Assembly (NCBI GenBank): GCA_029057985.1
Contig: JAIDYR010000011.1
Span: 1-64,000 of the forward strand
Reading direction: 5' to 3'
Origin: Muribaculaceae bacterium
Lineage (GTDB): Bacteria > Bacteroidota > Bacteroidia > Bacteroidales > Muribaculaceae
DNA: 64,000 bases
Positions within the stretch are counted from its first letter, which is position 1. Each line of letters starts with the position of its first letter. The notes under the pieces were generated by a model. That model made no database searches and had not been told where the DNA came from. It saw nothing but the letters and a program-made list of their open reading frames with translations. Shown piece after piece: positions 20,919 through 24,645 of the stretch. The translations under genes and the position numbers were made by a program.

Positions 20919-22268
20919 TTATGTCGCCGGCTCTCTGACGAGGGGCATGGAGTTAAGATCGGGTTGAGGTCGATGGCATATCTGCGGTTTGACTTCGCGG
21001 CGCAGGATGTGATGGCCGAATCTGCATTCAAGACATCGCCCTTTGTCGCAATATTGATCTTTGAGATGTAGCAGGGCTTGACTTCGGGATGCATCATCGG
21101 CCTTAATTCCCATTGATTCCCATGCTTTGATGAGCGAGTTCTTTTCTGCCGGCAGCCCGCGCAGCAGTCCGAGTGCAAGTTCGCCCCGATCGTAGTTCCC
21201 GGTGATGCGTGCGTGGGCCATATAAAACGGAGCAGCCACGTTGATCATCATCAGATTTCGGCTTCCGCGTGAGAGTGTTGAGGTGAGAGAGCCTTCCCCT
21301 TGTTCGGATCCGAAATCGGCATGACTTTTCCAATAATCGGAAGGTTCCCAGGCGAAGAGTCTGAATAATTTGTCGTAATCTCCATCCGCTTTCTCCAGAC
21401 TTGAAGAGAAGCGGACCCCTTCATATAGTGCCCGTGCGAGAAGAGCGAGGCGACGATGAGGAAAATTCTGAGGTCTGGTCCGGGCGTATTTCCATAAGGA
21501 CGCGTTAATAGGGCGAAGGCCGTATTTGCGAGCCAGAAATCCATACTCAGCACAAAGCGACTGATAATATGTGTCAAAAATATGGTCTGATCCGTTCAAC
21601 ATTCCGGCCTGGCCGAATATCAGGGCTTCTATCTGAAGCTGGCTGTCGGAATGATGATAGATAATCCTCAGAGGAAGATTCTTGGCCAGGATCTCGAATG
21701 GAATTCCATTAAGTCCGAAACCTAATCCGCGGGCGAAAAGTATGAAGACAGCCTGCTCCCAATCTCCTCCCGTGAGGGAATTGTAATCCAGCAATCGCGA
21801 TGCTTTTGCCTGAATGCGCTCGACTGCGAGAGTCTCCAACCAATCTTCCCTGATTAGATTTGGAATCGAGGGGATGTAGGGAGCGCAACGCACCTCTTTC
21901 AGGTCTCTCGCAAGTTCGGCATATGTCATAAAGAATTTTTCAGGGAGAATAGCCGTGATTTGGGGGATCTCCTCGCCATTTTGACGCCTGATACGTGTAT
22001 CATCGAAAGCTACGACGTGGAGTATCACATTGTCATATGCAGGGTCGGAATCGTGTCGGTGGCGCATCCAGTCGGAAGCTTTGACGTGAATCTCTATATT
22101 TCCGCTCCAGACTTTTCCGTCGATGCGAAGCCGGGCATTGGTGAAGTCAGGTCCTGCATCATCATTATGGCGTCCCGGTGCAAGAATCTCTATCCGATGC
22201 CCTTGCAGGTCGGTCATTACGGTTCCGAGCATCCGGTGATGCCAGAGATAATGATAAAGCAGTTCCAT
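20919..22268 (-). CDS. DUF2851 family protein
   Basis: ELLYHYLWHHRML...PGRHNDDAGPDFTNARLRIDG...GNIEIHVKASDW characteristic of family. Confidence 0.85.
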   Translation of the reverse strand: MELLYHYLWHHRMLGTVMTDLQGHRIEILAPGRHNDDAGPDFTNARLRIDGKVWSGNIEIHVKASDWMRHRHDSDPAYDNVILHVVAFDDTRIRRQNGEEIPQITAILPEKFFMTYAELARDLKEVRCAPYIPSIPNLIREDWLETLAVERIQAKASRLLDYNSLTGGDWEQAVFILFARGLGFGLNGIPFEILAKNLPLRIIYHHSDSQLQIEALIFGQAGMLNGSDHIFDTYYQSLCAEYGFLARKYGLRPINASLWKYARTRPQNFPHRRLALLARALYEGVRFSSSLEKADGDYDKLFRLFAWEPSDYWKSHADFGSEQGEGSLTSTLSRGSRNLMMINVAAPFYMAHARITGNYDRGELALGLLRGLPAEKNSLIKAWESMGIKADDASRSQALLHLKDQYCDKGRCLECRFGHHILRREVKPQICHRPQPDLNSMPLVREPAT

Positions 22269-22468
22269 TTCGGAGCGGTTAATTTTGAGGATGCCTTATA
22301 ATTGTGAAAGGCATGATCTATAGAACAGATTTTTTGCGGCGAGGAGCGATTTTATTTTTCAAAGTTACGGAAAAAGATTGAATTAAGTAGTGGCTAAGGA
22401 GTGAAATTTGCGAAAAAAACACTAAAGTGCATGAAAAAATTAAAAAATGTGAAAAAATCAGTTTAATA

Positions 22469-22577
22469 TTTGCGTATTCGAAAATTTAGCAGTAATTTAG
22501 CAATGTGTTTTTCATAGTATTAAATTAAGATTAAGGTTAGATCGGCCTCTTTGTGAAAAGAGACCGATCATTTTTTA
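22469..22577 (+). ncRNA. Candidate small RNA copy 1 with own promoter and terminator
   Basis: TTTG(22469)-N20-TAATTTAG(22493), leader tgtttttcatagtattaaattaagattaaggttaga, hairpin GATCGGCCTCTTT-GTGA-AAAGAGACCGATC, T-run 22571-22576. Confidence 0.6.
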
Positions 22578-22609
22578 TATAAGTCTCGCTTGCGGGTCTT
22601 ATATAAAAA
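22572..22609. terminator. Strong palindromic stem-loop, possibly bidirectional terminator
   Basis: TTTTTATATAAG (22572-22583) and CTTATATAAAAA (22598-22609) perfect 12-bp arms; inner CTCGC/GCGGG pairing. Confidence 0.6.
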
Positions 22610-23022
22610 CGATAAGAATAATTTTTCCGATGACGTTTTCTGTAGGATTCCTAAAAAGAATTTCAGCGCTTTGCTTTAGGTCGCGTTATATTGATATATT
22701 AATGAATTGGCAATTAGTATGGGAGGAGGGTTGCTTAGGGAACTGAAAAAAGTTGGCTCAGGATAATTATTGAAGTTATCCAAGTCTAATAAACGATTAT
22801 TTATTCTCATGAAACTTAAAAATCAACAAAAAATTGATTTTAGCAATTTGCCATAAATTTTTGGAGAATTATAGAGTATCGAAAGAATTATTGTTTCCAA
22901 TTGAGAGGGTAGGACTGAATAGATGTCGAATAAGGAAGAGAAAAAGATGACAAAATGGAAATTGAAATTTGTCTAAAAAAGAGTTAAAGTCCTATTAATT
23001 AATAGATTTTGATGCCAAAAAA

Positions 23023-23125
23023 TTTGGTTGATAGGGGAAAAAGTATTAATTTTGCACGTGTTTTTCATGGTATTAGATTTAAGGTTAGAGGATTAGTTGT
23101 CGGGATGACAATTAATCTTTTTTTT
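23023..23125 (+). ncRNA. Candidate small RNA copy 2 with own promoter and terminator
   Basis: TTTG(23023)-N20-TAATTTTG(23047), leader tgtttttcatggtattagatttaaggttaga, hairpin GATTAGTTGTC-GGGA-TGACAATTAATC, T-run 23118-23125. Confidence 0.65.
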
Positions 23126-23175
23126 ATTCCTCTGATTAAGTGAGGGTTATGCCCGACTATTTCCGAGAATCAAAG

Positions 23176-23901
23176 TCAAGCGTAGAGTTCGGCGAGGATA
23201 TCTATTGACTTAAGGTCAGTAGATATCGGCAAATGGAGTGAGTAGTAGCGTATCAGTTGGCGTAGGAGCCGGCGTCGCTGTCCGACGTTGAAACGGAAAT
23301 GACGCATATTTTCATAGTTAATTCTCAATAAAGTAGGAATGATGGAAGCTTCATCAGGGGCAATGATGTCGTTATGTCCGGGATGTAAAGGTGTAAATTC
23401 AGCGGAGCGCATATCAAATAGATTGCCCGATTGCATGGTTGAGGGATCTGGAGAAATCCCTGCAATCGTCAGAAAGCGGATAAGAAATGCCAAGTGAAAA
23501 TTGGCAAGCCCCTTCTCTGCTATATCGAGGTTATGCAATGTATTTATCAGAAACTCCCATATCGGTCGGTCGGCTTCCGATGTCCGCAGTATTTTCCCGA
23601 GGAACTCTGATATGAAAATAACTATGGGAGCCTTACCGGGATCAAAATATATGTTCTGCCATGGATGAGGGGTAGATATAGGACCGAGATACTGCAAATC
23701 CCGATTTTCACGGAAATTAACTTCAGACTCAATGAGCGCAAGGGGCGCCAATCGCGCGTTGCGCAGACGTCCGCTCCTGCCTGCTGATGCCGAGGAAAGG
23801 AAGGATACGCGTCCGCGTTCGGCGGTATACACATTCACGATATTGTTCTTATCGTTATGCCTGATGATTGAAAGTACAATCCCATGAATTTTTGTTAACA
23901 T
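23176..23901 (-). CDS. recO: DNA repair protein RecO
   Basis: MLTKIHGIVLSIIRHNDKNNIVNVYTAERGRVSFL N-terminus; length and RecO_C-like region. Confidence 0.9.
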   Translation of the reverse strand: MLTKIHGIVLSIIRHNDKNNIVNVYTAERGRVSFLSSASAGRSGRLRNARLAPLALIESEVNFRENRDLQYLGPISTPHPWQNIYFDPGKAPIVIFISEFLGKILRTSEADRPIWEFLINTLHNLDIAEKGLANFHLAFLIRFLTIAGISPDPSTMQSGNLFDMRSAEFTPLHPGHNDIIAPDEASIIPTLLRINYENMRHFRFNVGQRRRLLRQLIRYYSLHLPISTDLKSIDILAELYA

Positions 23902-24051
23902 TCCTAAAACTATTTTTCTTAGCTTCTTGTTTTACTAATGCAGACCGGAAAATCAGACTGGTATAATCTATATTTACTCCAGTCTTTCCCATCCCGGTAT
24001 TCATATTTTAAACGTAACATAAAGTATTAATCTTATTAAAAAACATATATT

Positions 24052-24645
24052 ATGGCAGACGCAACTCAGAAGAGCCTTAAAGGCACAAAGACAGCTGAAC
24101 TTCTTGCTCAATCTTATCTTGCGGAATCAATGGCCGTCACCCGCTATACTTATTATGCACAGCAGGCTCAGAAAGACTCTTATTTCCAATATTCCAATAT
24201 CTTTAAGGAGACAGCAGATAATGAGCTCCATCATGCAAAGATCTTCCTTAAATATCTTGTAGACGGAGGCGTCTGCAATGCCGCTATGGGTGTAGATACA
24301 GGCGATCTCAGCAGCACCGTCAAGAACCTGAAGGTCGCGGCTTCCGAGGAGCAGCAGGAAGGCGTGGAGCTCTACACGAATGCAGCCAAGGTAGCCAAGG
24401 AGGAAGGTTTCGATGAAATCGCCGACCGCTGGCTCGCAATAGCATCAATCGAAGCTCACCACGAAGCACGTTTTAATAAGCTTTCGGAGAGAATCGCCAA
24501 CGGCACTGTCTGGAAGCGCGACAAGCCCATCAAGTGGCAATGTCTGGTATGCGGTTATATCTACGAAGGCACCACTCCTCCTGAGAAATGTCCTGCATGT
24601 TATCATCCCTACCAGCACTTTATGGCAGCAGAAGACAATTATTAA
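24052..24645 (+). CDS. rbr: Rubrerythrin
   Basis: ESMAVTRYTYYAQQA, EAHHEARF diiron ligands and WQCLVCGYIYEG...CPAC rubredoxin domain. Confidence 0.97.
   Translation: MADATQKSLKGTKTAELLAQSYLAESMAVTRYTYYAQQAQKDSYFQYSNIFKETADNELHHAKIFLKYLVDGGVCNAAMGVDTGDLSSTVKNLKVAASEEQQEGVELYTNAAKVAKEEGFDEIADRWLAIASIEAHHEARFNKLSERIANGTVWKRDKPIKWQCLVCGYIYEGTTPPEKCPACYHPYQHFMAAEDNY

Follow-up and report, generated by a model that had tools for sequence, protein, structure and literature searches.

Two predicted FopS-family small RNAs in a single intergenic gap of a Muribaculaceae genome, in a bacterial family that nearly lacks RRM_1 proteins

Introduction

What is encoded by a gap between two genes that holds two similarly built units on the opposite strand? 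The case considered here comes from a Muribaculaceae bacterium (assembly GCA_029057985.1, contig JAIDYR010000011.1); the window is the whole stretch analysed, 64,000 nt from position 1 of the forward strand. An earlier note on this DNA had described two plus-strand units with TTTG-N20-TAATTT(A/T)G promoters, a conserved leader and a terminator hairpin, lying in a gap of about 0.9 kb between minus-strand genes. It took them for a duplicated orphan small RNA (sRNA) unit and suggested Bacteroidales-1 RNA as a possible relative.

RNAs of this build have been described. FopS (RF04319) is a paralogous sRNA family of Bacteroides thetaiotaomicron, where 14 paralogues of ∼65-70 nt have sigma-ABfr promoters (Ruttiger et al. 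2025, PMC11697453). The 5' seed, termed R1', binds SusC-type mRNAs by base pairing at their start region and blocks translation, start-region pairing and an in vitro translation block having been demonstrated for FopS-10, and the repression is antagonised by the RRM protein RbpB (PMC11697453). Of the multicopy sRNA families in Bacteroides, FopS is currently the one studied most thoroughly, with RbpB as its known regulator. Our literature search, limited to open-access papers, found no paper on FopS in Muribaculaceae.

Results and Discussion

Two promoter-leader-terminator units

The gap measures 907 bp, and both promoters described earlier proved exact in position and pattern (Table 1). Against the sigma-ABfr criterion TTTG-N19-21-TAnnTTTG, unit 2 matches exactly and unit 1 with one mismatch. 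The pattern TTTGN{19,21}TANNTTNG occurs eight times in the window, both unit promoters included, against 1.7 occurrences expected, and none of 100 shuffles reached that count. Over 22 nt the leaders of the two units, spaced 553 nt apart, are 91% identical, and a second block common to both ends in AAGGTTAGA. In each unit an unpaired 5' stretch is followed by a single terminator hairpin and a T-run (fold z-scores of -2.75 for unit 1 and -3.40 for unit 2 against dinucleotide shuffles). The predicted RNAs, ∼72 nt and ∼68 nt respectively, are thus of FopS-like size. The two hairpins differ in sequence, as the earlier note had said, but both carry a GNGA-type loop.

Directly 3' of the unit 1 terminator lies a strong inverted repeat (22572-22609; 18-nt arms, fold z -5.63) with a T-run on neither side.

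Table 1. Features of the gap and its surroundings (positions in the window)
Feature	Position	Strand	Description and basis
DUF2851 gene	20919-22268	-	flanks the gap
Gap	22269-23175		houses both plus-strand units
Unit 1 promoter, sigma-ABfr type	22469-22500	+	TTTG-N20-TAATTTAG; one mismatch to TAnnTTTG; pattern match
Unit 1 predicted sRNA, FopS-related, class A	22505-22576	+	sub-cut-off Rfam matches; exact leader conservation; T-run extends to 22576
Class A leader	22505-22537	+	GTGTTTTTCATAGTATTAAATTAAGATTAAGGT; presumed single-stranded seed; unpaired in centroid fold; exact conservation
Class A terminator hairpin	22540-22569	+	GUGA loop, one C.A mismatch; fold and covariation
Unit 2 promoter	23023-23054	+	TTTG-N20-TAATTTTG; exact pattern match
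Unit 2 predicted sRNA, FopS proper, class B	23058-23125	+	RF04319 score over cut-off
Class B leader	23058-23087	+	FopS consensus seed region (R1/R1'); 30/30 leading Rfam consensus positions match
Class B terminator hairpin	23091-23117	+	GATTAGTTGTC-GGGAT-GACAATTAATC; fold; stem kept in 59 class B-type units
Class B T-run	23118-23125	+
recO	23176-23901	-	flanks the gap on the other side
Candidate unit 1 pairing site	24026-24062	+	over the rubrerythrin start codon; duplex -19.1 kcal/mol; prediction
Rubrerythrin gene	24052-24645	+	start region ∼1.5 kb from unit 1

Unit 2 scores as FopS and unit 1 as a relative below the cut-off

A scan of the whole window against Rfam at gathering thresholds returned one match, unit 2 to RF04319 (67.2 bits; cut-off 56 bits). 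Unit 1 reached 49.0 bits against the same model in a permissive 1-kb search (E 5.9e-6), under the cut-off. Unit 2 agrees with the R1' seed consensus, whereas unit 1 bears several changes relative to consensus positions: an A at position 12, an A at 19, one deletion and an A at 27. Variants in its 5' region, CATAGTATTA and AAGATTAA, are shared with GibS (RF04182; Ryan et al. 2020, PMC7366714). However, GibS has a model of 142 positions, a second seed (R2) and another promoter, while unit 1 spans 72 nt with one hairpin, and the GibS scores, 45.1 bits for unit 1 and 32.0 bits, lie below the cut-off of 115 bits. Bacteroidales-1 RNA, which the earlier note had suggested and which resembles the units only in the idea of a promoter-to-terminator transcript, was rejected, as its model gave no match at the gathering threshold, nor when E values up to 5 were allowed.

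Judged by these scores, unit 2 is FopS; unit 1, significant but under the Rfam cut-off and with a GibS-like leader, is a relative of FopS that we call class A. The units are therefore no orphans, and because a published sRNA family explains them the find is ordinary in kind: the FopS family was known, and what is new is a sub-cut-off lineage variant, class A, together with the unexpected near-absence of a partner protein in Muribaculaceae. Since the present Rfam cut-off leaves class A out, it is probably missing from annotations.

Two classes conserved across relatives

Exact copies of the 33-nt class A leader occur in 75 public genome stretches, nearly all of them labelled as Muribaculaceae, Muribaculum, Amulumruptor or broader Bacteroidales metagenome-assembled genomes. 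A TAnnTTnG motif stands 4-5 nt ahead of the leader in 63 of the 71 class A units that have upstream sequence. Local gene order is reshuffled, with recO, DUF2851 or rubrerythrin inside the fetched stretch at 49 of the 75 loci; a class B unit is also found in 29 of them, often just past the recO 3' end, as in the window. In the window's own genus, class A is present at 13 of 23 fetched DUF2851 loci. The leader was not found in the DUF2851 neighbourhood of FopS-bearing genomes outside Muribaculaceae, so this synteny is lineage-specific. Six relatives were scanned with Rfam: their class B units all exceeded the FopS cut-off, while class A appeared as a FopS match in four (44.5-51.5 bits, none over the cut-off), gave only a weak GibS match in one and was not listed in the other.

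This qualifies the earlier description of a duplicated unit. The leader does repeat, but a merely local duplication does not account for two classes that are each separately conserved in the family; on this comparison, A and B are two orthologue classes, and unit 1 is more than a degenerate version of unit 2. The idea of a leader-defined sRNA family with a variable terminator held up, as leader and hairpin are conserved together in related genomes, and each hairpin is conserved, or covaries, inside its own class.

In 72 class A units, the ninth pair counted outward from the loop is TA in 51, GC in 12, AT in 7 and CG in 2; it is paired in 72/72 as against 41 in shuffles, a figure biased upward because the stem-locating search favours pairing. 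More telling is how many different compensating pairs occur, and two-sided changes that keep pairing are likewise seen at pairs 1, 3 and 7. Class B-type stems are almost invariant near the loop. A GNGA loop closes 131/131 of the hairpins and 14/622 other terminator-like hairpins from the same loci, two figures not obtained by exactly the same rule because a second script used stricter stem rules; under those rules GNGA was scored in 50/72 FopS hairpins, and the contrast is still large.

These data also bear on a cis-acting role, in which each unit would be a leader or attenuator, the 5' UTR and terminator of a gene downstream. An attenuator would have the same promoter-leader-terminator anatomy, and in some relatives class A does lie just upstream of a same-strand recO. 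We nevertheless think this improbable: in the window recO and DUF2851 are on the opposite strand and the first plus-strand gene after the units is rubrerythrin, ∼0.9 kb past unit 2, and from one relative to another the unit stays constant while the gene that follows it changes, as does that gene's orientation.

Further copies in the genome and on phage and plasmid records

The genome that contains the window (92.7% complete) has three clear FopS copies and a weak one. The third (C55:6558-6629) has the top score, 78.8 bits, and sits between adenylate kinase and prephenate-dehydratase-like genes (named by eye). The weak fourth unit (C10:1719-1806, 31 bits), which has no evident sigma-ABfr promoter, follows an amidase/endolysin-like gene and one for a small membrane protein, and looks prophage-borne.

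FopS-like sequences were also seen on phage records MT836368.1, PQ571285.1, MT836359.1 and MT837453.1, a Bacteroides xylanisolvens phage among them, where they adjoin no annotated gene. Records filed as plasmids from Bacteroides, Phocaeicola, Parabacteroides and Prevotella (H5-H22) carry FopS leaders as well; some very large ones may be chromosomes.

Could the two units, then, be mobile or phage-borne remnants that no longer function in the chromosome? The phage records and the endolysin gene beside the fourth copy would fit, and phage spread was suggested by the FopS authors (PMC11697453). Such an origin without function seems to us improbable too, as classes A and B are kept in a conserved neighbourhood, with a nearly invariant promoter and leader and with compensating stems. 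Scarcely credible is a leader conserved as the coding sequence of a tiny peptide: ATGGTATTAGATTTAAGG is present in class B, but class A has CATAGT in place of ATG plus a 1-nt deletion, the 1-nt insertion of the C55 copy breaks the frame, and sORFs were excluded by the authors for the B. thetaiotaomicron members (PMC11697453).

FopS where RRM_1 is nearly absent

FopS matches were present in 149/149 sampled Muribaculaceae genomes, covering 30/30 genera, and GibS exceeded its cut-off in none of the 149. RRM_1 (PF00076), the domain of an RbpB-type partner, was found in 2/149 of these genomes and in 0/110 of those at least 90% complete; the window's own genome gave no RRM_1 match, with a positive Bacteroides ihuae control. 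The two genomes bearing the domain (G004:C40 and G027:C31) have 10 and 8 FopS copies, and their RRM_1 may reflect contamination or a retained ancestral state.

Among 295 Bacteroidales genomes, 37 had both FopS and RRM_1, 26 FopS only, 161 RRM_1 only and 71 neither, with FopS held by 22 numbered families. On these counts FopS extends beyond Bacteroidaceae and can do without RRM_1. FopS copy number in the order did not differ significantly with RRM presence (medians 5 and 4, P = 0.19).

The present RNAs resemble FopS of Bacteroides in promoter type, leader, size, single terminator hairpin and multicopy occurrence. They differ in setting: Bacteroidaceae have 12-15 copies and RbpB, whereas here ∼3-4 copies occur in a family almost devoid of RRM_1. 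Muribaculaceae, a large gut family that is also abundant, offer a natural test of the need for RbpB, with FopS in every sampled genome and RRM_1 nearly always missing, and this pattern suggests that, of the components of the circuit, the RNAs are older or more fundamental.

A model of trans-acting repression and its candidate targets

It is highly probable, in our judgement, that the units are two independently transcribed, trans-acting repressors of the FopS/GibS family that pair with start codons and work independently of an RbpB-type RRM protein. The data show the anatomy of the units, their homology, conservation and covariation, and the near-absence of RRM_1; from these we infer that both are transcribed, pair with mRNAs and repress them. 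The gap would yield two sRNAs of ∼70 nt, each with its own sigma-ABfr promoter and Rho-independent terminator, and the unpaired 5' leader would pair with target mRNAs around the ribosome-binding site and start codon, thereby blocking translation. The probable targets of unit 2, which has the consensus FopS seed, are mRNAs for SusC/SusD or other surface proteins, as in Bacteroides; unit 1 belongs to a lineage-specific class whose seed is GibS-like, and rubrerythrin is its best predicted target. In Muribaculaceae, FopS RNAs would have to do this work without an RbpB-type RRM protein.

Targets were predicted against 597 start regions, drawn from the window, a 300-kb sample of its own genome and SusC loci, without an accessibility term. 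For the unit 1 leader, the rubrerythrin start came first of the 597 by shuffle z (-5.9) and second by energy; for the unit 2 leader it came 50th by energy. Pairing at least equal to it occurred in 1/160 AT-matched start regions and 9/3000 random AT-matched 65-mers; the signal emerged after several leaders and scoring rules had been tried. Across the 75 relative loci, rubrerythrin had the lowest mean z of 15 gene families (-2.77, n = 12; reversed leader +0.66), these families being neighbours at the loci rather than a sample of the whole genome. The conserved codons ATGGCAGAC (ATG GCA GAC) fall within the pairing site, so the site's conservation is partly that of the protein; with part of the site being conserved coding sequence, rubrerythrin targeting remains a prediction. 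The full proposal, that class A is a distinct Muribaculaceae sRNA with a seed intermediate between FopS and GibS which represses rubrerythrin independently of RbpB, is in our view a doubtful one. If true, it would tie this RNA family to peroxide or oxygen defence, beyond glycan uptake alone.

At the start codons of the window's own genome, the seed complement AATACYATGAAAAAC gave 26 matches with up to two mismatches, against 21 for the reversed control, and 3 of those 26 matches fall in the sRNA genes, leaving no enrichment. Three approaches to the SusC start regions examined gave little, and no such region ranked near the top. Among Sus genes the strongest candidate is a SusD start on contig C11, which ranked second of 597 by energy for the leader of the third copy; this start and that of rubrerythrin are the two predicted target leads.
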